From an uncultured Granulosicoccaceae bacterium (GTDB lineage Bacteria; Pseudomonadota; Gammaproteobacteria; Granulosicoccales; Granulosicoccaceae), in assembly GCA_938045275.1 (NCBI GenBank), contig CALIMV010000273.1:1-32370 (forward strand): DNA of 32,370 bases, written 5' to 3'. The notes beneath the pieces were generated by a model. It did not search any database. It was not told where the DNA came from and worked only from the letters and a program-made list of their open reading frames with translations. Position 1 is the stretch's first letter. The number at the start of each line of letters is the position of its first letter. Below, one piece after another: positions 1,739 through 13,336 of the stretch. A program made the position numbers and the translations under genes.

Positions 1739-3616
1739 CTAGCCTAACGGAATATCGACCCATTCGTCGTCGTCTTCATCATCGTCATTGTTTTCGCGGA
1801 ATGTTTTATCATAACGATCGACATCATCTTCGTCGTCGTCCGGAAAGTAACCCAGCGGTGTATCGCTCAAAATATCAAGGTCATTATCGAGTTCATCGTG
1901 AAATTCTTCGAATGTTTGCACTACCGGCTCAAGTTCGTTATCAGTTTCGGTTGTTTCGCTGGTGACCTGCAAGGTGCTGTCCATGTCCACAAACTCATTC
2001 TTTGTGGTGTCTAAGGTATTGTCACCGTTCTCTGACACATCATAATCACCAACGTCAACACTACTAATAAAATCACTCTCATCACCGCCAAGGTCTATAT
2101 CGGTTTCATCATCAAAGGCCAGCGCCAGTAATTTATTGGTTTCATCATCACTTGCCTCACCGATGTTTGTATTTCTTAATGTATCACCGCCAATGTCTGC
2201 ATCCAGCTGGTCGGCCGCAATACTGCCACCAGCCCCGATGAGTGCAGCCTCCTTTTGCGCCATTGGTCGCAACCATGGTTTATCAGCAGGGACGTCCGCG
2301 CGACCGGGCATACCAGAGGGTCCAATGGGATTACCATCAGCGAGCTCCTCATCTGTGACGTCAATGGATTTAAGGTTTATTTGCCGCAACATGCTGATAG
2401 GTAATGCAATAAAGAAAATCCAGTACAGCTCTCTGTTAACTAAAAATCGCGCTTCGGAGAAGTTACTGATCAAGTAAGCCACTACAAAAGCCAATACAAA
2501 TAGCACACCTACTTGTTGTCGCTCGTATTGACAGTAAAAGATCTCGATTAACTGCTGCGCCACCATAAGCAGCGCTATACAAGATAAGGGCAAACCAATC
2601 TCTGAAGCCACTTGTAAAAAGCCATTGTGAGCGTGGTACACAACCCAGGTAAAATCAGTCAGGCTTTGCTGAATCCACAGGGTGGCATCGTTAGGAAACC
2701 AAATAGAGCCATATCCGTAACCTGTCAGCGGTTTAGCCATGATGAGCTTCCAGGTTTGTCTCCAGACTTCACCTCGACCCGTTAAGTCACCCGAGCGACC
2801 CAATATCTGTGCTGTATCGATGTTCGACAATGCAAAGCCGAGCAAGCCACCAAACAAGATAGCCAGTACCACCATGCGTACAAATCCGAGCTGAAAGCGA
2901 AAGGCTATGTACAAATACAATGACAATGAGCCAGCGATCAACATGGCCAGTAAAGAAGTGGCTGAATCACTTTGAATTAATAAGTACAGCGATATTCCAG
3001 CGAACAGATAGCACACTAACCTCAGGAAGAAACTTTGCGTTGACGCACTTAAAGTAACAAACAACAGTGCCGCCATTGAGGCCCAAAAACCGAGCGCATT
3101 TTTAGAATTGAGTATTCCGCTCCAAACCACCGCTCCTTCGTATTCCTGCCTGCCAACCGACGGCATTAACATGGCAGCAGCCAGACTTGCCAGCATTATC
3201 ACCCCAAGAACTACGGCACTGACTCTCAAGGTAGTCAGCAGCGGAATCATAAATCCCAGATAGATTGCCAGCACGGAGCAACCAATCAGGTGCACTACTC
3301 GCTCTGCTGAAATAACAGCGTCTAGCGACCAGGTAACTGAAAGAATGGTGCCCAGTAGCAGGATGACAAGCAATATTCGGTATCGCGATAACCATGAAAC
3401 CCAGTTAATGCCATGACCAAACATCAAGCCCATAAATGCAACAAGATAAGTGATGAGCCACAGCAATGCGATAGCACTGTGAAGTTGTGGTGCAAAGTGC
3501 GTCATGAGCGTGTGCAAAGCACTCGTACCCAGTATTACGGTAAGTGCGAGCACAAACATCGCAAAGACCGAACCGCGCGGAGCAATACTTGGCTGTGTGT
3601 ACGTCGCTAAACGCAC
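1739..3616 (-). CDS. O-antigen ligase/polymerase family membrane protein with acidic C-terminal extension
   Basis: A 625-residue protein. Residues 1 to about 410 contain around ten hydrophobic segments and the Wzy/WaaL-type periplasmic loop, including GYGYGSIWFPND and the histidine-bearing HAHNGFLQVASEIGLP. This is the O-antigen ligase domain, which joins or polymerises undecaprenol-linked glycans at the periplasmic face of the inner membrane. The remaining roughly 210 residues are not membrane-like: they are very rich in Asp, Glu, Thr and Ser, with runs such as DDDEDDVD and DDDEDDDEW, and end in VDIPLG. This tail is unusual for the family. The earliest start is GTG at 3616; ATG at 3559 is an alternative that would shorten the N-terminus by 19 residues. 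No other glycan-assembly genes lie nearby, so the substrate is open. Confidence 0.85.
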   Translation of the reverse strand: MRLATYTQPSIAPRGSVFAMFVLALTVILGTSALHTLMTHFAPQLHSAIALLWLITYLVAFMGLMFGHGINWVSWLSRYRILLVILLLGTILSVTWSLDAVISAERVVHLIGCSVLAIYLGFMIPLLTTLRVSAVVLGVIMLASLAAAMLMPSVGRQEYEGAVVWSGILNSKNALGFWASMAALLFVTLSASTQSFFLRLVCYLFAGISLYLLIQSDSATSLLAMLIAGSLSLYLYIAFRFQLGFVRMVVLAILFGGLLGFALSNIDTAQILGRSGDLTGRGEVWRQTWKLIMAKPLTGYGYGSIWFPNDATLWIQQSLTDFTWVVYHAHNGFLQVASEIGLPLSCIALLMVAQQLIEIFYCQYERQQVGVLFVLAFVVAYLISNFSEARFLVNRELYWIFFIALPISMLRQINLKSIDVTDEELADGNPIGPSGMPGRADVPADKPWLRPMAQKEAALIGAGGSIAADQLDADIGGDTLRNTNIGEASDDETNKLLALAFDDETDIDLGGDESDFISSVDVGDYDVSENGDNTLDTTKNEFVDMDSTLQVTSETTETDNELEPVVQTFEEFHDELDNDLDILSDTPLGYFPDDDEDDVDRYDKTFRENNDDDEDDDEWVDIPLG

Positions 3617-3845
3617 TTCGGCAGACTAGCCTGTTTGAGCAATACTGTAAAATTCATTGTGTAATGATAGCTAATGCTGTGTTCACGTGCTCAATAGTAT
3701 GGGGTGAAATTGTGCAACATTCTACCGCGTCGCTTTATGCTCTTTATTTTGCAAATATCTTTAATGTTGCAAATAATGATGCACACGGCATACGATTCCT
3801 TATCAGTATCGCTGAACTATAGATTTGAACAGAGATTTGGGGGCT

Positions 3846-5156
3846 TTATGAGCCTGCAGAACCCGAAACACGCCACACAACATTACCTACATCGTCGGCT
3901 ACCAACAAACAGTTTTCAGGCCCAATCGCCACACCAACTGGTCGTCCATAAGAGACTTTCTCGTCTGGGGCTAAAAATCCGGTGAGTATGTCTCGCGGCG
4001 GACCATCCGGGCGTCCATTGGAAAAAGGTACAAAAACCACCTTATAACCACTTAGCGTGCTTCGATTCCATGAGCCGTGCTGACCAATAACCATGCCATC
4101 AGTATCAAACCCTGGCAGCACACCAGCTGGCATCCAACACAGTCCCAACGATGCAGTGTGTCCGCCCAAAGCGTAATCAGGCGCTATTGCTTTGGCAACC
4201 ATTTCCGGGTTCTGTGGGACGCGATCATCAACGGTTTGATGCCAATAGCAATAGGGCCAGCCATAAAAGCCACCATCCTGTACTGAGGTAAGGTAGTCAG
4301 GTGGCACTTCATCGCCAAGACCATCCCGCTCGTTAACCACAGTCCAAAGTACATCGGTATTGGGTTCCCACGCAACGCCCACAGCATTACGCAACCCGGA
4401 TGCAAATATGCGCGATTCGCCGGTTTTAAGATCAAGCTCATAGATGGCTGCCCTGCCCTCTTCTTCCGCCAAGCCGTTGTCGGCAATATTGGTGTTGGAT
4501 CCAACACCAGCATAAAGCTTGGTACCCTCTTTATTAGCAATGAGGCTACGAGTCCAATGACCACCCGGTTTAAACTCGACCAATTTTCGACCTTCACCGC
4601 TAATACTTGTCGCACCATCGGTGTACTCAAAAGCCACCACACCATCGGTGTTGCCAACATAAAAGGTGTTGTTCACCATTGCCATACCGAAGGGCTTATT
4701 CTGATTTTCCAAAAAAGCGCTACGCTGATCACCCACACCATCACCGTTGGTATCTCGAAACAGGGTAATTCGATTTGCTGATTCTCCAAGCGCGGCGGCG
4801 CGCCTCATGGTACTAACAATGGCATAGTCGAATGCTGACTTCACTGGCCCTGCGTCCGGCAGTGCCTCTGCAACTAAAACGTCATTATTGGGTAGCACAT
4901 GAATCCAACGAGGATGGATTAAGTCGCCGGCAAATTTGTTTACCTGCAACCCAGTTGCCACTGTTGGCTTGTGCCCATCTTCCCAGCCTTTAGCAGTTGG
5001 CATCTTCAAGGTTGGAATATTTTGCGCACGGGCCTCCGGGATGACAGGCTTACTGCCCAAAACAGGCGCGTCACTCTCCTTGCCCCAACGGCGCATCAAA
5101 ATTGCCGCGGCGCCAATCATTGCTACAAGGCGAGAAAATAAGTTTGCGTTGCTAAT
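3846..5156 (-). CDS. PQQ-type sugar/sorbosone dehydrogenase-like beta-propeller protein
   Basis: A glucose/sorbosone dehydrogenase-like six-bladed propeller. Propeller repeats read WIHVLPNNDVLVAE, GNTDGVVAFEYTDG, VGVAWEPNTDVLWTVVNE, GMVIGQHGSWNR and GVAIGPENCLLVADDVGN; the family oxidises sugars or sugar-like alcohols in the periplasm using PQQ, though many members have no tested activity. From ATG 5120 the protein has 424 residues and starts with a very short hydrophobic stretch. The frame stays open upstream to a TAA at 5181-5183 and contains no ATG, GTG or TTG, but has an ATT codon at 5154-5156 preceded by GGAGA at six-base spacing. Starting there gives 436 residues and a fuller N-terminal anchor (LFSRLVAMIGAAAILMRRW). 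I give the longer form; the start is uncertain. No PQQ biosynthesis genes are in the window. Confidence 0.75.
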   Translation of the reverse strand: MSNANLFSRLVAMIGAAAILMRRWGKESDAPVLGSKPVIPEARAQNIPTLKMPTAKGWEDGHKPTVATGLQVNKFAGDLIHPRWIHVLPNNDVLVAEALPDAGPVKSAFDYAIVSTMRRAAALGESANRITLFRDTNGDGVGDQRSAFLENQNKPFGMAMVNNTFYVGNTDGVVAFEYTDGATSISGEGRKLVEFKPGGHWTRSLIANKEGTKLYAGVGSNTNIADNGLAEEEGRAAIYELDLKTGESRIFASGLRNAVGVAWEPNTDVLWTVVNERDGLGDEVPPDYLTSVQDGGFYGWPYCYWHQTVDDRVPQNPEMVAKAIAPDYALGGHTASLGLCWMPAGVLPGFDTDGMVIGQHGSWNRSTLSGYKVVFVPFSNGRPDGPPRDILTGFLAPDEKVSYGRPVGVAIGPENCLLVADDVGNVVWRVSGSAGS

Positions 5157-5234
5157 GTGATTTCTCCAGAGCTTGCGTTTTTAGAAAAGCTTAACCGCAA
5201 TACGTAGTTGACTAAAATTTAACTTGAAACCAAT

Positions 5235-6176
5235 TTACATCTTTCGCATTTTAACGCCTTCAATGGCATGATCTGCGCCCTTGTGCAAAATGAGTTTTGC
5301 GCGATTCTTGGTAGGCAAAATATTCTCAACTAAATTCACATCGTTGATCGTATTCCAGATATTGTTCGCTGTCTCGGTTGCCTCTTCAGTATTTAATTTA
5401 GCATAGTGGCTGAAGTAGGCGCCGGGTAAGTTAAATACCGTTGAGCGAAGTGATAAAAAACGATCAACATACCATTGGCGAATATCGTCTGACTTAGCAT
5501 CAACATACATAGTGAAATCGAAATAGTCAGAGACGAACACATTTTGCTCGCCCAGTTTAGCACCACGAGTTTGCAGTACATTCAAGCCTTCAACAATGAG
5601 TATATCTGGCTGGTCAACTTCGATAAACTCATCAGGAACAATATCGTAATGTAAATGAGAGTACACAGGCGCTTTTAAGTTTCGCTTACCGCTTTTTACA
5701 TCAGATAGAAACTGCAACAACCCAGCCCGGTCAAAACTCTCTGGAAAGCCTTTGCGATGCATGATGCCTCGCTCTTCAAGGGTGGCAGTCGGTAGTAAAA
5801 AACCATCTGTCGAGACTAGATCAACCTTTGGATGCTCTGGCCATCGGGCTAACAAAGAGCGCAGGACTCTGGCAACAGTGCTCTTACCTACTGCAACTGA
5901 GCCCGCAATACCAATAATATAAGGCACCTTGCCCGCGTCAATTTCAAGAAATTCTCGAATCCCGATATTGAGTTCTTGCGTCGACGCAACATGAAAACTG
6001 AGCAATCGAGACAATGGTAGATAAATCTGCTCCACTTCTACAAGTGAAACACACTCATTCATACCACGCATCTGCGCCAATTCAGATTCGGTTAACGGTT
6101 GCGGTGTATTGCGCCGTAAGGCGGCCCATTCCTCGATAGAAAAGTGCTGATAGGGTGATTGGTTTAGATCGTCCAT
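5235..6176 (-). CDS. coaA: type I pantothenate kinase
   Basis: A 313-residue cytosolic enzyme that phosphorylates pantothenate with ATP, the first step of coenzyme A synthesis. It has the P-loop GSVAVGKST at residues 92-100, STDGFL at 122-127 (the conserved Asp), and the family landmarks [19 protein letters not shown] and [12 protein letters not shown]. Length is close to E. coli CoaA (316 aa) and it aligns end to end, with no sign of damage. The start ATG at 6176 has no strong Shine-Dalgarno sequence. It lies downstream of the TMEM220-like gene on the same strand (109-bp gap) and upstream of the beta-propeller gene. CoaA enzymes are normally controlled by CoA feedback rather than transcription. 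Confidence 0.95.
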
Positions 6177-6285
6177 AGGTATTGCTAATGAGGCAGGGTT
6201 GCTTTGTTAACCGATCCGACCTGGATGACCGGCACAGTATACCGAATAGGTTGTTCTGATGGACAGAAAGTCGCTAATCAATTCT

Positions 6286-6654
6286 TCAAGGTGTGAACGA
6301 CAACTTCTTACGCAATTGGCGTTGTGCAGCAAAAATTATCACCAATACCACCACGGTGATCATAAGGCCCATTCCCTCGCGGGCTGTTTCAACTTCCCAC
6401 CAGATCTCCTGAGTCCACCATTTATCGCTCTTTGGCCAGTAGTAGATCATGCCGCCGACAGCCACCAGTATGCTGACCAACAGCAATCCTCGAAGCACTG
6501 CGGACTGATACACTTCAGGGCGAAAACAACACACTAAGGCAAGTAATGCTGGTATCCCGTATATGATCATCCATTTGAGTCCATCAGGGTCATTGAACTG
6601 AACCGCTGCAAACAGCATCATCAGCAAGGCCAGAACAAAGCAGAGTACACGCAT
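6286..6654 (-). CDS. TMEM220-like small membrane protein
   Basis: A 122-residue protein with four hydrophobic segments. The opening MLFAAVQFNDPDGLKWMIIYG carries the N-D-P-D motif typical of the transmembrane 220 family, found in many proteobacteria and in eukaryotes with no established function. The start ATG at 6654 is well supported: GGAG lies nine bases upstream. It is probably an independent gene or shares a transcript with coaA. Confidence 0.75.
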   Translation of the reverse strand: MRVLCFVLALLMMLFAAVQFNDPDGLKWMIIYGIPALLALVCCFRPEVYQSAVLRGLLLVSILVAVGGMIYYWPKSDKWWTQEIWWEVETAREGMGLMITVVVLVIIFAAQRQLRKKLSFTP

Positions 6655-7188
6655 AAACTTATTCTCCGAAATTGCAATCCATCAGCATACCAAAGACAAG
6701 CTGGTCGAATGACGAACCTACAAAATATACGCCGAGTCGCACATATCAACCAAGCAAATTGATTTGGACATAAACACCGGTGCTGTGTGACGTACCGCAG
6801 AAATGTATTTGCAACCGTGCATCATGGGCAGTTGAGCATGACAGTTTCCAGCCCTTGGTGTGTCCACTGTGCTATTCACGCTATAGATTTACAGTTGGCT
6901 AATTGAGCTGCTCAAAGTTAGTTTTTATTTCTATAAACGTCATGTTCGTAACAGCGCAAAAACGATTTTCTCACATCATATCTGCGCTTCTGTATCCCCG
7001 TTGGCCGCAAGTACCTCATGAGAAACGATTACCCCATGTCCGCACTCCGTCACCTCCAATCCATGACCACCAATCCATGACCACCAATCCAAAAGCTACT
7101 CACTTTAATCTCAACAGGGTTTAATCTTTCAGCGCTAACCCAATATGCAGTAAGATACACATAGCATCTAAGATTTTCATGTATTTAC
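6655..7188. other. gene-poor intergenic region upstream of ycaO
   Basis: No convincing gene lies here. A 73-codon open frame at 6903-7124 has no Shine-Dalgarno sequence, ambiguous composition and runs through the tandem repeat, so I do not call it. The region is divergent between the TMEM220-like gene (minus) and ycaO (plus), so it must hold both promoters. The only structured element seen is the 14-bp tandem repeat at 7056-7090. Confidence 0.6.
7056..7090. repeat. 14-bp tandem repeat, 2.5 copies
   Basis: Exact period-14 repeat with unit CCAATCCATGACCA: copies at 7056-7069 and 7070-7083, and a partial copy CCAATCC at 7084-7090. It lies about 100 bp upstream of the predicted ycaO -10 element. 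Confidence 0.9.
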
Positions 7189-7194
7189 TATAAT
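7189..7194 (+). promoter_or_regulatory. candidate -10 element for ycaO operon
   Basis: A perfect TATAAT 48 bp upstream of the GTG at 7243. No good -35 hexamer is seen at 16-18 bp spacing, which would fit a promoter needing an activator such as the neighbouring BTAD or LuxR-type protein. The sequence is AT-rich, so a chance match is possible. Confidence 0.35.
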
Positions 7195-7214
7195 TGACTG
7201 GTGGCAGGGCATCC

Positions 7215-7250
7215 ATGGAAAACACGTCAATAACATTGATTTGTGATTAA
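7215..7250 (+). CDS. possible 11-residue leader peptide upstream of ycaO
   Basis: ATG at 7215 opens an 11-codon frame (MENTSITLICD) ending in TAA at 7248-7250, one base before the ATG at 7252 that can start YcaO. GGCAGGG lies just upstream at normal spacing, while the YcaO starts themselves have no Shine-Dalgarno sequence. The arrangement suggests translational coupling: ribosomes ending the mini-frame could restart on ycaO. Such a short frame can arise by chance. Confidence 0.3.
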   Translation: MENTSITLICD

Positions 7251-8637
7251 CATGATCACGCCGTGGCAGGAATTTTCTGGTAAAGAAGTCAGTCTATTTG
7301 CAGCAGCAATTGACCAACATCTCAACTCATCAACTAAAGCCGAATTTCATTGTAAAACTCAATTTGAATCCAGATTCCTGTCACTTTTTAATGGAAATAG
7401 GCCTGATAGAAATGGGCTTGATAGAACTGGGCTTGATAAAAAAGAGCTTGACGGAATTGACGTTTTCAACCGCGAAGACATCAACCTTCTTTGCTCTGCA
7501 AGAAACCTCGACCGTATCTTTACTTTGCCCAACGATCATTCTAATGGATTGTATTTTTTCGGCGCCCAAGGCGATAGCGTCAGCGCCAACGGCGCAGCTG
7601 ATTCAGCAATAGCTGCAATAAGGTCTTGTCTTGGGGAGGCTCTGGAGCGGTGGATTCATAAGAACACTTCACTTGCCAATGAAAAAAGTGCAAACGCTCG
7701 TAATTACCCTTTCTCTACACCAACGGATACACACCTGCGATGGTTCGCAGATCAACAGGGTTGTGACGAAACACACTACAAGAACGCCACAGAATGGGTT
7801 GCAGCAAAATCTTTGGTGTCAGACAACGTTCTTCTGGTGCCCACTGATTTCGCTTTTCGTTCGAACAAATCGACCGCTGATTTATTCCCATCCGAAACCA
7901 GCGGATTATCCACTGGACCGGATACAAGCTCTGCAATCTCATCGGCTTTGTTGGAATTAGTAGAAAGAGACACCGTGGCCTTGTGGTGGTACGGCGGTGG
8001 TTCGGCTTCTCAATTGAATCTCGAACCAGAGTCCAGCTTCAATCTAATTTCCTACGCAAACCTGGCTAGAAGAAACAGTACTCGTCCATTCTGGTTGGTA
8101 AACATTGAAAACGAATTTCAGATTCCGGTTATTGCTGCATTTTCAGCAGACAGAAACGGGCAGCAGGTCATTGCCGGGTTTAGTGCAAATACAGATATTT
8201 ACCGAGCTTGCTGCTCAGCTATTTGCGAACTAGGACAAATGGAGTTAGGACTGCACCTTGTTCAATTAAAAATTAAAGAACAAGGAATACAGGGCCTGAA
8301 CGAGAATGATTATCGACAAATTAACAGAGCACAACAACTTAGTCTGGCATCTTATCCAGAACTGTACCCACCTTTATCGACCAATGCAGTAACATCTCAA
8401 TCAGGCGTTTCAGGAGAATTGCAGATGAATGTCCTATTGGACAGGATAACCAAGGCTGGGTATGCACCTTTTGCAATAGATATGACGGACACGAACATCG
8501 GCGTACCGTGCTATCGAGCTGTAATTCCAGGTCTTGAGTCCTGCAGCATAAATAGAGCCAGTACACGATTGAAAAATCGGTTAGGTCAGTTGAAAACCAC
8601 TATCAACAATGTGCGCGCCAAGCCTGCTTTGCTATGA
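7243..8637 (+). CDS. stand-alone YcaO-family ATP-dependent enzyme
   Basis: A 464-residue YcaO-domain protein. YcaO enzymes use ATP to activate a peptide amide, forming azolines, thioamides or amidines in ribosomal peptides, or modifying ribosomal protein S12. Visible family motifs: SCLGEALERW (128-137) and ELVERD (238-243), the acidic ATP/Mg2+-binding helices; ICELGQMEL (327-335); and the C-terminal DMTDTNIGVPCYRAVIPGLE (413-432). The proline-rich C-terminus (PxPxP) common in azoline-forming YcaOs is absent; it ends NNVRAKPALL. Residues 53-72 are encoded by a 15-bp tandem repeat and look like an insertion. Start may be GTG 7243 or ATG 7252; the latter abuts the stop of a leader frame. A BTAD regulator follows 25 bp downstream. 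No E1-like/ocin-ThiF partner, TfuA, dehydrogenase or transporter is nearby, so the substrate is unknown. Confidence 0.85.
   Translation: MINMITPWQEFSGKEVSLFAAAIDQHLNSSTKAEFHCKTQFESRFLSLFNGNRPDRNGLDRTGLDKKELDGIDVFNREDINLLCSARNLDRIFTLPNDHSNGLYFFGAQGDSVSANGAADSAIAAIRSCLGEALERWIHKNTSLANEKSANARNYPFSTPTDTHLRWFADQQGCDETHYKNATEWVAAKSLVSDNVLLVPTDFAFRSNKSTADLFPSETSGLSTGPDTSSAISSALLELVERDTVALWWYGGGSASQLNLEPESSFNLISYANLARRNSTRPFWLVNIENEFQIPVIAAFSADRNGQQVIAGFSANTDIYRACCSAICELGQMELGLHLVQLKIKEQGIQGLNENDYRQINRAQQLSLASYPELYPPLSTNAVTSQSGVSGELQMNVLLDRITKAGYAPFAIDMTDTNIGVPCYRAVIPGLESCSINRASTRLKNRLGQLKTTINNVRAKPALL
7400..7459 (+). repeat. 15-bp tandem repeat inside ycaO, 4 copies
   Basis: Four consecutive 15-mers: GGCCTGATAGAAATG, GGCTTGATAGAACTG, GGCTTGATAAAAAAG, AGCTTGACGGAATTG. 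In the ycaO frame they encode RPDRN-GLDRT-GLDKK-ELDGI. The unit length is a multiple of three, so copy-number change keeps the frame. Confidence 0.9.
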
Positions 8638-8662
8638 TGCCGCCGAATAAAGCCCAACCATA

Positions 8663-10663
8663 ATGCAAAATATCGAAGGAAAAGGTGCTCACCTTTCGAT
8701 ACAGGTTATCGGCTCTGTACGTGCGTCTGTAAAAAACAGCGAATCTCTACAGTTGCCAAATAAAGCCATGGCGCTATTGATCTATTTCGCGCTCACCCGC
8801 AAAGAAACAGAATCAAAGGAATTCATCAAAGGCCTTCTTTGGAGCGAAAGCTCTCAAAAACGCGCCAGCGGTTCACTCAGGCAGTGCTTGAAAAAATTAA
8901 ATGACACGTTTAGCTTGGTTGATTTTCGCGGATTCACTTCCAGTGGAAACGAGATACGCTTGAACGACGATTCAATAAGCGTGGATATTATCGATTTGCA
9001 TGAGGGGCTGCAGTGCGATCAATTGACTAACGAAATGACTTACGAAAATCTTAATATGCAAGATTTTTTAAACGATCTTGATATTCGCGATCATTCATTC
9101 GAAACCTGGGTTCACGTTCAACGTCAGAACTGGTCGAGTAAGTTACTCGGCGTATTAGAAGAAAAACTCAGAGCCGATACAAGCAAGCACGAAACAAAAC
9201 TTGTTCATGCTCGATTGCTGTATGCGCTAGACCAAACCCATGAAGAAGCGTGTAGATTTCTAATGGAATATTATGCTCGCAGAGATAATCTAGGGCCGGT
9301 TATGGAAATGTACTCCAAACTTTGTTCTGAACTAGACGAAAAATACGGTGCCGAACCCTCTCCTGAAACCATCGAATTGTATTTATCGATCCAAACTGGA
9401 AATTTTATTAGAAACACCCAGTCAAAACCCCAGAATGCAGTATCAGATGATAGGAAAAGTGCGCCGGTTATTGGTATTAATGCTTTTCAGTGGTCGGGTA
9501 CAAGCAGTGAAAAAGAAGCGCTGCACGCAAATTTTTTCAGAAATGAATTAATGGCCGCGCTGTCGAAATTTCGGGAGTGGGTAGTTGTTGACACAAAAAA
9601 AAGAACTCAAGCAGACTTAGATGCCACCGATATCGACTACTTGTTAGACGGAACATGTTATCAGATCGATAATTTCACCGATGTACTGATCACGCTTACA
9701 GATTCGGTTTCCGGACAAGTGTGGAGCGAAAACTCACACATAGAAACAAAAACATGGATATCTACCCAGCGTTCCATAGTGAGCAAAATAGCCGTTGCTT
9801 TGAATGTGTATTTGTCTACAGCACGACTGGCTAACACCATTTCACAAAAGGATTTTTCTAGCACGACGCATGAAGAATGGCTAAAAGGTTATCAAAATAT
9901 GCTGGTCTGGGATCCAATTTCTAATCAAAATGCTGAACGCATATTTAGAAATATCATCGAGCAATCACCGCAATATGCTCCAGCATACAGCAGTCTGGCC
10001 ACCGTGTTGAATACTCGACAATTTAAGCACATTGGCATTAGCAGTGTAATGAGTGACGTGAAACAAGCACTTGATTATGCACAAACCGCTGTAGAACTGG
10101 ATCCATTAGAATCCCGAACCCAGCTTGCGCTTGGTTTTTCACTTGCCATGAATGACCAGTTTGAACAGGCACAATTGCACCTTACGCTGGCCCGAGAATT
10201 AAATCCTTATAGTCCGGTTTCGGTGGTACCGTGCGCGCATGGGTTGTCTTTATGTGGGCTTCATAATGAAGCTGTTGAGTTAGTGGACTGGGCGGAAAAC
10301 GTGAATTGGCGATGGATGCCACAGTTTCATTGGGGCTACATTTCATGCGTGCGATTTTTCGCCAAAGACTTCAAAAAGGCAATTTCGGCAGCAAAATTAG
10401 CCAATGGCGTCATTATTGACCTGCACGCCTGGCATGCTGCAGCGCTGGCACTAGACGGGCAAATTGATGCAGCGTCCCAGGAACTTGATAAATTTGTCAG
10501 GCTGGTAAAAGAAAACTGGTATGGAACAAATTCACCAGATGACAGCAATATTGCCAATTGGTTTTTAAACAGTTTTCCAATTAAATTGACTGAAGATCTG
10601 GACTTACTGAAGGAAGGGCTGGCGTTGGCAGGTTTAGCCAACGCCTCCTCGAGTGTGAGCTAA
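8663..10663 (+). CDS. SARP-like transcriptional regulator: winged HTH + BTAD + TolB-like + TPR
   Basis: A 666-residue protein. Residues about 10-105 look like an OmpR-type winged helix (KAMALLIYFALTR; LRQCLKKLN), about 106-245 like a bacterial transcriptional activator domain (ARLLYALDQTHEEACRFLMEYYARRDNL; EKYGAEPSPET), about 268-390 like the TolB/FlgO-like domain of CadC- and adenylate-cyclase-type regulators (LLDGTCYQIDNFTDVLITLTDSVSGQVW), and about 395-660 helical TPR-like repeats (YSSLATVLN; ALDYAQTAVELDP; AQLHLTLARELNP). SARP proteins activate secondary-metabolite and peptide clusters; the TPR part probably senses a ligand or partner. It is 25 bp downstream of ycaO on the same strand, with no terminator between, so they are probably co-transcribed. 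No membrane segment or ATPase domain is seen. Its stop overlaps the stop of the convergent 126-aa gene by four bases. Confidence 0.8.
   Translation: MQNIEGKGAHLSIQVIGSVRASVKNSESLQLPNKAMALLIYFALTRKETESKEFIKGLLWSESSQKRASGSLRQCLKKLNDTFSLVDFRGFTSSGNEIRLNDDSISVDIIDLHEGLQCDQLTNEMTYENLNMQDFLNDLDIRDHSFETWVHVQRQNWSSKLLGVLEEKLRADTSKHETKLVHARLLYALDQTHEEACRFLMEYYARRDNLGPVMEMYSKLCSELDEKYGAEPSPETIELYLSIQTGNFIRNTQSKPQNAVSDDRKSAPVIGINAFQWSGTSSEKEALHANFFRNELMAALSKFREWVVVDTKKRTQADLDATDIDYLLDGTCYQIDNFTDVLITLTDSVSGQVWSENSHIETKTWISTQRSIVSKIAVALNVYLSTARLANTISQKDFSSTTHEEWLKGYQNMLVWDPISNQNAERIFRNIIEQSPQYAPAYSSLATVLNTRQFKHIGISSVMSDVKQALDYAQTAVELDPLESRTQLALGFSLAMNDQFEQAQLHLTLARELNPYSPVSVVPCAHGLSLCGLHNEAVELVDWAENVNWRWMPQFHWGYISCVRFFAKDFKKAISAAKLANGVIIDLHAWHAAALALDGQIDAASQELDKFVRLVKENWYGTNSPDDSNIANWFLNSFPIKLTEDLDLLKEGLALAGLANASSSVS
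10621..10645. terminator. 9-bp perfect hairpin at the convergent gene ends (weak terminator candidate)
   Basis: GGCGTTGGC / GCCAACGCC with a 7-base loop, inside the 3' coding end of the BTAD regulator and just beyond the stop of the convergent 126-aa gene. There is no U-run on either strand, so a classical intrinsic terminator is not established; the stem is GC-rich and could still block readthrough from the minus strand. Confidence 0.35.
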
Positions 10664-11040
10664 CCGCAATGCGAAATTGTATAGTCTCCAATGCGGAACT
10701 GATAAGTTTCTTCTTTTGATAGCTTTGAATTACCATTGACTATATTTTTGTAGGTTTCAGGGACTTCATACTCGCCTACATTGTAGTACCGATCTTTAAC
10801 CGCCTGTCGAGGAGGTACTGCAATGTGCATAATGCCATTGGCATCATTCTCTAGAAATAAGACACCGCTAACTTCACCCTCAAAAAATGATTCATCTTTA
10901 TCCCCAATAATACTGTTGAGAACTTGCTTTCCTTCTTCGGCCGTCTTTGGAAACTCACCATCAGCCATTATCGTATCGATAATGTACTTTCCCACTTTTA
11001 TTTTATCTTCTTCGTCCATGCGCCAAGCTTTGTTCGACAT
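10660..11040 (-). CDS. unrecognised 126-aa protein next to YcaO/BTAD genes
   Basis: I do not recognise the family. The gene is real on translation signals: ATG at 11040 is preceded by AGGAGAGG at ideal spacing. The product is soluble, charged and acidic near the N-terminus (MDEEDK; ADGEFPKTAEEG), has a middle segment GVLFLENDANGIMHIAVPPRQAV, and ends ISHCG with its only cysteine at residue 125. There is no signal peptide or membrane segment. It lies 80 bp downstream of the 171-aa gene on the same strand and converges on the BTAD regulator. A long N-terminal region with a Cys/Gly tail could suit a precursor for the neighbouring YcaO, but it lacks a recognisable double-Gly or nitrile-hydratase-type leader, so this is only a hypothesis. 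Confidence 0.7.
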   Translation of the reverse strand: MSNKAWRMDEEDKIKVGKYIIDTIMADGEFPKTAEEGKQVLNSIIGDKDESFFEGEVSGVLFLENDANGIMHIAVPPRQAVKDRYYNVGEYEVPETYKNIVNGNSKLSKEETYQFRIGDYTISHCG

Positions 11041-11120
11041 ATCATCCTCTCCTGATTAAATATTTATGTGATTACAACAATGCTCGTACTGCGTACGGCA
11101 AACTCTAAATCATTTGTGTT

Positions 11121-11612
11121 TCATCCGAACCAAAAGCCAATAATCGTTCCATCAGGGCTGGATTCGATATTGACTCTATTTGGGTCAATTGAACAATCGA
11201 GACTGTCACCTGTTTGATAGGCTCGATACTTCTTTCCAACAAGTTCTCTTATTAACACCGGCATGTCTTCAATTGGTGATCGACTGATCGGTCCCATTAT
11301 CAGCCCATTTGGCAAATCAAGTTCGGGATATTTTGTACCAACCCACTCTCGAAAACCAAATGCACCTCTTACCTTACTCTTTAAGTTTGTCCAGTCGTCA
11401 CTCGAAATTGCGAATACGTTAGCGATCATCGGTGTACCATCCGCATTTTCATGCTTTGACCAATGCGTACAACAAGATCCATAGATTTCATTAACACCAA
11501 AATGATTGAGCTCAGCAACATGAGCTTTTAAAGGCACTGGTTTGTTGACCTTTCCGCGCTCCACGATCGCAGGCTTAAAAACTATGCTTACTTCAACCCC
11601 TTCAGCTGACAC
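11121..11612 (-). CDS. unrecognised ~163-aa protein next to YcaO/BTAD genes
   Basis: I do not recognise the family. The frame is open from a TAG at 11652-11654 and has TTG candidates at 11636 and 11624 and GTG at 11612; I chose GTG 11612 because GGGGAG precedes it by four bases. The 11636 start would give 171 residues. The product is soluble with no signal peptide. It has a Cys-Cys pair in EIYGSCCTHWSKH, a third Cys in DSLDCSID, and ends PDGTIIGFWFG. A strand-rich first half with KAHVAELNHFGVNEIY suggests a small folded domain rather than a pure leader. It is first of two minus-strand genes (the 126-aa gene follows after 80 bp) and is divergent from the LuxR-type gene. Confidence 0.6.
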   Translation of the reverse strand: MSAEGVEVSIVFKPAIVERGKVNKPVPLKAHVAELNHFGVNEIYGSCCTHWSKHENADGTPMIANVFAISSDDWTNLKSKVRGAFGFREWVGTKYPELDLPNGLIMGPISRSPIEDMPVLIRELVGKKYRAYQTGDSLDCSIDPNRVNIESSPDGTIIGFWFG

Positions 11613-11636
11613 TCTGCTCCCCAACTCGATCCCCAA

Positions 11637-11957
11637 ATCACTTAAACCGTTCTAATGAGCACTCAATGCTTGGCCCTTACACATAAATTCTCCATATTCA
11701 GTGTTATCGAGGCGTTAACGTGCAATATATATCATCTTCATAACGCGAATGGGCTAGACAAAAGCACTATATGCTGCCAATTTTTGCCAATTAAATTAAT
11801 GCGAGCCAACTACACAGATTTTCACTACACATTCAAATTACACGCATTAACACCTGATTAACGCCCGCCAGGTAGAGTTCTCCACAGAGCGGAGATTTGG
11901 AAGTCAGTTTTTCATACCAGAATCAGAATTTAAATGGTCTATTGAGAGGGGAAAACT
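11637..11957. other. divergent intergenic region between the 163-aa gene and luxR-type gene
   Basis: About 320 bp, visibly AT-rich, with no supported gene; a 68-codon open frame at 11655-11861 has no Shine-Dalgarno sequence and unremarkable content. It must carry the promoters of both flanking genes. I see only a small TCTCC/GGAGA stem at 11879-11895, too weak to call, and no clear operator palindrome. Confidence 0.5.
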
Positions 11958-12332
11958 ATGGAACAATTAATGGCTAATCCGGAGGCAGACGTATCAAAAA
12001 GTTCCTTAGATAATTTTGTGGACAACGTTTACTCGTATTACAGCAACCTGGATTTTCAGGAGCAAAAACTATTGCTGTTAAACCTGTACGCGCAACTAAG
12101 ACACAAGGACGACAAAGATTTCCGCAGTGGGCAATGCGAGAATCTTACCAACCGAGAGAAAGAAGTTTTGGTACTCATAGCGCATGGATACTGCCGTAGA
12201 GAGATTGCATCCAGTCTGCACATTAGTAGAAATACCGCTGCACGACACATTTCAAATATCTATTCGAAATTGGACATCAATACGGTTGCAGAGGCAACGC
12301 GCATTGCGATAGCAAACCGTTTAACTGCGTAG
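11958..12332 (+). CDS. small LuxR/GerE-type HTH transcriptional regulator
   Basis: A 124-residue protein with a complete LuxR-type helix-turn-helix at residues 62-124: LTNREKEVLVLIAHG, then REIASSLHISRNTAARHISNIYSKLDI, then an AEATRIAI helix. The N-terminal 60 residues are helical and carry no receiver or autoinducer-binding domain, so it is a DNA-binding protein with no visible sensor, similar in size to GerE-like regulators. GAGGGG seven bases before the ATG makes the start secure. It is transcribed away from the two small-protein genes and may control them or the ycaO operon; this is inferred from position only. Confidence 0.85.
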   Translation: MEQLMANPEADVSKSSLDNFVDNVYSYYSNLDFQEQKLLLLNLYAQLRHKDDKDFRSGQCENLTNREKEVLVLIAHGYCRREIASSLHISRNTAARHISNIYSKLDINTVAEATRIAIANRLTA

Positions 12333-12386
12333 AAACTGGCTGTTTTCTCATAGAGAGAGAATGAGACAGAAAGAAAGAGAACTGAT

Positions 12387-12421
12387 TTGATCGGCTACCG
12401 ATTTTTATCGTGGCCGGTCAG
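12387..12421. terminator. hairpin downstream of luxR-type gene
   Basis: Interrupted inverted repeat: TTGATCGGC...CGAT, loop TTTT, ATCG...GCCGGTCAG, with a small TAC/TG internal loop. It lies 55 bp after the luxR-type stop in otherwise non-coding DNA before the convergent hydrolase gene. No U-run follows, so it is a possible terminator or another RNA structure. Confidence 0.4.
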
Positions 12422-12577
12422 ATCAAGCATAACGCAAATACCAATTCTTCAGTAGTGTAAACGCCAAGCCAAGGCAGTGGGCAATGCACAATAATATTGC
12501 CGACATTCTTATCCGAATTACCGTTAACTGATTGGAAAAATTAAAACTACGATTCATGTACATCCTTGTAAGCAGAA

Positions 12578-13336
12578 CTACAGCTGCTCATCCAACCACT
12601 GCGCTATAACGTCTAGCAATTGATTTTCATGATCTGTGTTGTCAAAAAAATGATAGGCAGAATCAATAACAACTTGCTTGTAGGTTTTGTTGTGTGCCGC
12701 GCCTTGTTGACGAGCGTCCGCCGTTTCGAGAACAGTCGGGAAATCGCGGCTACCGTAGATATCCAGCACCGGGATGCTAATCTGCTTGAGTGATTCAGCA
12801 CTGTTCACCGATGTTTCCTTATGCTGAGCGCTCATGCCAATGGCCACAAGTGCTTTAATGTCGTGTTCGTTGTTGGCCAAGTAATAACTGGCCATAGTCG
12901 CACCCTGGCTGTGAGCCACCACAACGATAGTATCAATGCTTTGGTTTTTTAAAAAAGCTATTGCCGCTTGCATTCGAGCCGGTACTTCCGGATAGAGCGG
13001 GATGTAGTCTTCATAGGCTGCACTTTTTTCAAGTATTGGGAGTTGAATCGAAAGGGTATTCCAGCCATGTGTCGCCATTTCCACCCGAACGGGTTGGACC
13101 ACCTGCTCCCAGTCCGGATGAAAACCTGTGCCGTGCAGCACAACCATGCCTTTGTTGGACGTGGTTTCAGATTCAGTGAAAATACTCAAAAAACGATGTC
13201 CATCAGCATCAAGGAACACCGGTTCTCCGTCAAAAATTATATCCAGCGTCTGATCTACCCAACGCTGTTCTCGCTCCGCATTGGTAGCGTTCAGGGGGGA
13301 CGCGACGATAAGGCACAATAGTATTAAAAATCTCAT
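12578..13336 (-). CDS. alpha/beta hydrolase, DUF3530-like, exported
   Basis: About 252 residues starting at ATG 13336 with an evident signal peptide (MRFLILLCLIVASPLNATNA). After LHGTGFHPDW (oxyanion-hole region) comes the nucleophile elbow VVAHSQGA with the catalytic Ser, then a later Asp in DIYGSRDFPT and His in DSAYHFFDN, completing a Ser-Asp-His triad. The arrangement resembles DUF3530 hydrolases, whose substrates are not known. A TTG at 13354 would extend the protein by six residues but looks worse than the ATG. The hxlR-type gene lies 65 bp upstream on the same strand, so the two probably form an operon and the regulator may control it. Confidence 0.8.
   Translation of the reverse strand: MRFLILLCLIVASPLNATNAEREQRWVDQTLDIIFDGEPVFLDADGHRFLSIFTESETTSNKGMVVLHGTGFHPDWEQVVQPVRVEMATHGWNTLSIQLPILEKSAAYEDYIPLYPEVPARMQAAIAFLKNQSIDTIVVVAHSQGATMASYYLANNEHDIKALVAIGMSAQHKETSVNSAESLKQISIPVLDIYGSRDFPTVLETADARQQGAAHNKTYKQVVIDSAYHFFDNTDHENQLLDVIAQWLDEQL

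Follow-up and report, generated by a model that had tools for sequence, protein, structure and literature searches.

We analysed a YcaO enzyme and the genes around it on a contig of 32,370 nucleotides (C273, hereafter the window) from an uncultured Granulosicoccaceae bacterium, whose assembly comprises 5.75 Mb in 499 contigs and is about 82% complete. An earlier note had read five genes here, namely a YcaO, a BTAD regulator, two small proteins of no recognised family and a LuxR-type gene, and all five were confirmed at their positions by open reading frame (ORF) coordinates and domain matches (Table 1). The acidic ATP-binding motifs described for the YcaO and the close spacing of the regulator were borne out as well: the Pfam search covered the whole PF02624 model (E 1e-43), and the regulator, whose gene starts 25 bp behind the YcaO stop codon, matched PF03704 (E 5e-7, BTAD at residues 147-243) with TPR matches behind. 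No DNA-binding model exceeded the cut-off in the N-terminal part of the regulator in the domain search. The gene of the 126-aa protein is convergent to that of the regulator, and their stop codons overlap (10660-10663).

Table 1. Features of the YcaO locus in the window.
Feature	Position	Strand	Basis
Stand-alone YcaO, 464 aa	7243..8637	+	PF02624; starts at GTG, with an ATG 9 nt downstream
BTAD-TPR (SARP-like) regulator, 666 aa	8663..10663	+	PF03704 and TPR
126-aa small protein, candidate YcaO substrate	10660..11040	-	68 family members detected
Conserved C-terminal tail RIGDYTISHCG of the 126-aa protein	10663..10695	-	25-sequence alignment and 33 distinct tails
171-aa accessory protein (163 aa from inner GTG)	11121..11636	-	one relative
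GerE/LuxR helix-turn-helix (HTH) protein	11958..12332	+	domain match

The window protein belongs to the YcaO superfamily and keeps the ATP/Mg-binding Glu, Gln and Arg residues, since E132, E135, E238, E241, R242, E329, Q332 and E334 (window numbering) are invariant in an alignment of 33 YcaO sequences. Its AlphaFold2 (AF2) model, with a mean predicted local distance difference test score of 85, was most similar in VIA-align to the archaeal stand-alone YcaO of M. jannaschii (6peu; Z 30.8, root-mean-square deviation 3.2, 347 residues). LynD and MusD (7u58) followed, covering residues 74-464, and the E. coli YcaO structure ranked lower (Z about 20, within an overall range of Z 20-31 to YcaO structures). 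Searches with the YcaO alone gave relatives elsewhere at 20-30% identity, and no close relatives were found in viral contigs.

In our trees, the YcaOs of the conserved cassette described below were nearer to azoline-type than to E. coli-type YcaOs. The quick tree placed them beside the fused YcaOs of thiazole/oxazole-modified microcins (TOMMs) of the nitrile hydratase leader peptide (NHLP) type, away from E. coli-type and TfuA-linked ones. In the careful tree, 26 cassette YcaOs formed one side of a branch with support 89/83 (not starred), and the E. coli-type clade (100/100) excluded the window YcaO; several YcaOs, the window's included, have long branches. An E. coli-type identity was ruled out by the tree together with an approximately unbiased (AU) test (p 0.016). 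A TfuA-type identity was also set aside, as no TfuA was detected in the genome; here kinship in the tree was disfavoured yet not formally rejected (AU p 0.067). These results indicate that the window YcaO is separate from E. coli-type YcaOs and, less firmly, from TfuA-linked ones. The earlier note had further drawn on the missing PxPxP C-terminal end; this end is indeed not present, but its absence is uninformative because azoline-type YcaOs of the same genus lack it too.

Full-length relatives of the regulator (about 24-37% identity) adjoin a YcaO gene in most of about 70 loci. A regulator scan of 398 genomes of the phylum returned seven further strong orthologues, of which six belong to a cassette, and in one of these six (L054, genome G346) the YcaO is disrupted (10707-11394, only pieces match) with the peroxidase, small protein and BTAD genes intact. 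The best plasmid relatives of the regulator came from Mesorhizobium huakuii, Rhodobacteraceae QY30, Paroceanicella, Paracoccus and Phaeobacter, and they lie next to a YcaO, a small protein and either a 'peroxidase family protein' or its homologue, except in one Paracoccus (SMMA_5_TC). Among species-representative contigs, the scan gave 67 loci, nearly all labelled Alphaproteobacteria and one labelled Mycobacterium sp. KBS0706; carriers include Bradyrhizobium, Mesorhizobium, Belnapia, Roseomonas and kin, Stappia, Roseibium and Inquilinus. The cassette was found on chromosomes as well as plasmids, in plant-associated and marine bacteria, and a strong regulator orthologue was present in one of 369 gammaproteobacterial genomes, that of the window.

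YcaO, BTAD, small protein and peroxidase genes occur together in 60 of the 83 loci examined, usually with the YcaO and BTAD genes on one strand and the small protein and peroxidase genes convergent on the other. The remaining loci hold YcaO, BTAD and peroxidase (10/83), YcaO, BTAD and small protein (4/83), BTAD, peroxidase and small protein (4/83; a contig end explains at least L082, L106 and L117), BTAD and YcaO (1/83) or BTAD alone (4/83). The neighbourhood is non-random; neither random variation of the neighbours nor a tight grouping with E. coli-type YcaO, the two outcomes that would have spoken against the earlier note, was found. A five-gene unit is not supported: the conserved core consists of the YcaO, the BTAD-TPR regulator and the 126-aa protein, all of which the window holds. 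Nor is the YcaO an orphan, as had been thought, since a PF02624 search found two YcaOs in the window's genome, the other one at a second locus with the same trio (L017, contig C433, 2560-12764). There, the YcaO (2560-3867, plus strand) is followed by a BTAD gene (3895-5880, plus strand; 27% protein identity to the window regulator) and a convergent small protein (5898-6485, minus strand) that ends FRVGDYCSSQCA. The trio is followed by genes for a CarboxypepD-like protein (96 aa), an S8 subtilase that carries ricin-type repeats, a LuxR protein and an ABC (ATP-binding cassette) transporter.

The two small proteins of the window, described earlier as belonging to no family, indeed have no Pfam or NCBIfam match (nor has the 126-aa protein a PADLOC match), but the 126-aa protein has a family of 68 members. 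Used as a query, it gave no relatives in plasmids or in the 48 genomes searched from the order, and its family emerged only through the neighbourhood of the regulator; in the window's genome, the family profile detected exactly two members, those of the window and L017. A Cys followed by exactly one residue forms the C-terminus in all 68 profile-detected members, whereas a penultimate Cys occurs in 26 of 1280 background ORFs of at least 300 aa (about 2%), a rough yardstick since these include non-genes. The 33 distinct 11-residue tails fit R-[ILV]-[GA]-D-Y-x-x-x-x-C-x, with R-[IV]-[GA]-D-Y-[TS]-[IL]-x-x-C-x as the consensus of the family, and the last residue varies freely (A, R, S, G, K, D, Q, V, E, M or T). 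In a 25-sequence alignment, P31, Y91, Y97, R116, D119, Y120 and C125 (window numbering) are invariant, four of these seven falling within the last 11 residues; the body is otherwise highly diverged, and the tail is much better conserved.

Because the profile includes the tail and could thus bias membership, a rule based on position only, which takes the longest convergent ORF at the BTAD stop codon, matters for this result. In this way, eight genuine slot proteins that the profile had not matched were picked up, each ending in C-x (GIY[AI]T[NE]MC[RDN] in six, FKFLSRCF and KIFLSRCH in the other two); the ninth pick (L126) proved to be an antisense shadow. Longer shadow ORFs or a different gene order (L013, L053) defeated the rule at some loci, and the C-x proteins there, having been sought deliberately, are weaker evidence.

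The usual partner of the trio is an animal-type haem peroxidase with weak PF03098 matches. Its distal QFxxHD and proximal RxGH motifs are retained in 97-100% of 74 peroxidases, so these proteins are probably active haem enzymes. At L103 (12015-14006, Rhodobacteraceae DSL-40), the small protein forms the C-terminal end of the peroxidase polypeptide, which hints that the two act together. No peroxidase was found in the window or at L017, L062 and L086, and none in the slot at L075. Its place is taken at L062 (12502-14271) and L075 (12558-14498) by a predicted secreted protein with a single CxxCH motif, a GAFVxxRRxH end and no Pfam match; the end of a third ORF, at L108 (1613-3289), is similar to these proteins. 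At L017 and L176, a subtilase stands next to the trio instead of the peroxidase. The latter locus (G131, 11113-13209) is a diverged Mesorhizobium-like cassette in which the slot protein ends LFGCR and the neighbouring subtilase, predicted to be secreted, also has a penultimate Cys (PKCN).

In the window, the slot usually held by the peroxidase is occupied by the gene of the 171-aa protein. Searching plasmids and the same 48 genomes with this protein gave no relatives either, and its sole relative (L096, 7772-8272; 37% identity over 104 aa, E 9e-19) lies directly upstream of the YcaO, in divergent orientation, in a complete cassette. With one relative next to one other cassette, the gene falls outside the conserved core. 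The two proteins have a C-terminal ..P[ND]RVNIE..WFG in common, the L096 relative matches the I78 peptidase-inhibitor model below the cut-off (E 0.038), and the C-terminal part of the 171-aa protein may, on this weak indication, possibly be protease-inhibitor-like. The LuxR gene was dropped as a member since dispersed paralogues occur without the cassette: the genome has four similar genes, this one included (paralogues on C458, C433 and C375). The closest (L183, on C458) is 80% identical, and the DNA is 84% identical over 409 bp, start region included (window 11924-12332 versus 844-1252); no YcaO, BTAD, peroxidase or small protein gene lies beside it on that 4.7 kb contig. A known defence system was also considered and rejected, as PADLOC gave nothing but a generic HTH match of the LuxR protein.

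From the gene identities, the synteny, the invariant tail and the catalytic residues kept in the YcaOs and peroxidases, we infer a substrate, a modification site, a chemistry, a role for the peroxidase and a biological purpose. We favour, with modest confidence, the reading that the locus is a regulated YcaO-dependent cassette for tail modification and that the 126-aa protein is its likely substrate, modified at or beside the penultimate Cys. The BTAD-TPR regulator would control the locus, and the 126-aa protein would consist of a folded, mainly helical body and a short tail ending in Cys-x-COOH. YcaO enzymes phosphorylate a backbone amide, and the nucleophile then decides between azolines, amidines, thioamides and hydrolysis (PMC13063428). 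Here, the YcaO and ATP would activate an amide of the tail backbone, most likely the one preceding the penultimate Cys, so that a thiazoline or similar heterocycle would form at the C-terminus. A Cys one residue from the C-terminus is a natural azoline-forming nucleophile, and a thiazoline is favoured as a first guess; the free identity of the last residue also fits its removal. In most other carriers, the neighbouring haem peroxidase would work with or on the same small protein, and the window's genome would do without the peroxidase, having the 171-aa protein here and the subtilase beside the second copy. The earlier proposal of a regulated YcaO system of undescribed type, acting on a peptide or protein, is supported by a YcaO outside the E. 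coli type and a non-random neighbourhood.

Several points weigh against tail modification as we propose it. No recognised leader-binding partner was found: the absence of TfuA, noted earlier for the window, now extends to the genome as assembled, where a PF07812 search gave no match, and residues 1-73 of the YcaO are modelled as helices, partly with low confidence, with no clear RiPP (ribosomally synthesized and post-translationally modified peptide) recognition element (RRE) in this barely tested region. In the AF2 model, the 126-aa tail lies in a helix that would need opening for modification, and its conservation could reflect binding instead. The small protein has no fold match in the PDB (Foldseek, VIA-align), which does not prove a new fold. 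When the flanks were compared all against all, antisense shadows and Bradyrhizobium flanks were all that emerged, and no exporter or protease was conserved. The locus counts do not represent independent events, given the over-representation of Bradyrhizobium and genomes fetched twice for a few loci (e.g., L052/L072, L056/L111, L057/L107).

The combination of a conserved tail, a diverging body and no recurring exporter or protease favours a conserved functional group over a secreted antibiotic. The tails of pyrroloquinoline quinone (PQQ) or mycofactocin, which are conserved because the product is, serve as the model here. It is tentatively possible that the cassette builds such a group, protein-borne or derived from a peptide, at the conserved C-terminal tail (R-x-G-D-Y-T-I-x-x-C-x), either a prosthetic group or an activated end, which would equip a partner (peroxidase, CxxCH protein or subtilase) and not serve as a secreted antibiotic. 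If true, this would add an undescribed role to those of YcaO enzymes.

The same tail would also suit an ATP-dependent C-terminal hydrolase like MusD, which cuts off a C-terminal GV (PMC10885120): the amide by the penultimate Cys would be activated, and water or another nucleophile would then release one or more terminal residues, so that a defined C-terminus or a conjugate remains. Exactly one residue of free identity follows the Cys, as expected if it is discarded, and MusD is among the closest structures to the YcaO model. However, the M. jannaschii YcaO and LynD are equal or better structural matches, the conserved RIGDY part would be left unexplained, and hydrolysis is indistinguishable from heterocycle formation by sequence alone; we consider this route unlikely. 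We are also doubtful that the small protein serves in docking or delivery, substituting for an RRE or TfuA, and binds the YcaO via its tail, with the peroxidase or another partner as the true target. The L103 fusion and the varying partners beside the trio (peroxidase, CxxCH protein, subtilase) would agree with such a role, and the folded protein uL16 is modified by E. coli YcaO (PMC13063428). Yet a Cys that never varies and keeps its distance from the C-terminus, even in unrelated bodies, is typical of a reactive site, and the partners have no obvious motif in common.

An ordinary azoline TOMM antibiotic cluster, in which a long structured leader would release a short C-terminal peptide, seems improbable. 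The YcaOs do lie next to those of NHLP-type TOMMs in the tree, and structured leaders bound by a YcaO are known (PMC12455567), but in RiPP antibiotics it is usually the core that varies and the leader that is conserved, the reverse of what was found here. Moreover, exporter, leader protease and flavin mononucleotide (FMN) dehydrogenase families do not recur outside Bradyrhizobium flanks, and the tested members of the 126-aa family gave no Pfam or NCBIfam match to NHLP or another known leader family. It is very improbable that the window holds a relic whose YcaO and small protein drifted out of function after loss of the peroxidase, since despite the long branches of both copies, the missing peroxidase and the rarity in the class, the reading frames are intact, every catalytic residue is retained along with the complete tail consensus, and an adjacent peroxidase is also lacking at L062, L075 and L086.

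Among known systems, the azoline YcaOs LynD, TruD and MprC (cyanobactins, NHLP-type TOMMs) resemble the cassette enzymes in fold, ATP-site residues and tree neighbourhood. Their systems also place a Cys near the substrate C-terminus and, in the case of NHLP/MprC, have a long structured substrate body (PMC12455567). In contrast to them, the cassette has a conserved tail on a diverging body and a haem peroxidase partner, and it lacks a clear RRE, an NHLP match and an FMN dehydrogenase; no ocin-ThiF/E1-like domain, fused or separate, was seen in the first reading, an absence not re-tested with a specific model. The window's genus itself has fused TOMM YcaOs of about 765 aa (L021, L022); immediately upstream of them lies a small NHLP-like precursor that ends in CC, and an ABC-type protein of 1050 aa is encoded nearby. 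MusD of the muscoride pathway resembles the window YcaO by structure and acts at the very C-terminus of a ribosomal peptide, but is a fused cyanobactin-type enzyme whose cut-site sequences are unrelated to the cassette tail. The E. coli YcaO (uL16 thioamidation, PMC13063428) is stand-alone and acts on a folded protein, a likeness that holds only if our proposal is right; it forms a separate clade and is longer, with a C-terminal extension not present in the window YcaO. In YcaO-TfuA pairs (e.g., L177), a BTAD regulator adjoins the YcaO as in the cassette, but TfuA is present, the regulator scores 192 bits versus more than 450 for most cassette BTADs, and the profile finds no Cys-x small protein. 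Such distant BTAD genes beside YcaO-TfuA (L177, G103:C1127, 4294-8604; also G069:C6 and G167:C72) are probably rhizobial and may mark a sister system.

In open-access papers, the part of the literature searched (subscription papers and preprints were not covered), we found no description of such a cassette, whether for a YcaO with a haem peroxidase, with a BTAD/SARP regulator or, as a stand-alone enzyme, with a C-terminal Cys. A survey of the TOMM landscape mentions neither peroxidase nor BTAD (PMC4603692), and an Acetobacteraceae genome survey names Roseomonas mucosa alone as carrier of a YcaO cluster (PMC8776678); genera related to it carry the YcaO-BTAD-small-protein cassette. Provisionally, the cassette appears to be an undescribed way of altering a protein tail. 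Known YcaO chemistries are few, and stand-alone YcaOs with undefined substrates are hard to assign; here, conservation across many genera points to a substrate candidate, a residue (the penultimate Cys) and a recurring redox partner.

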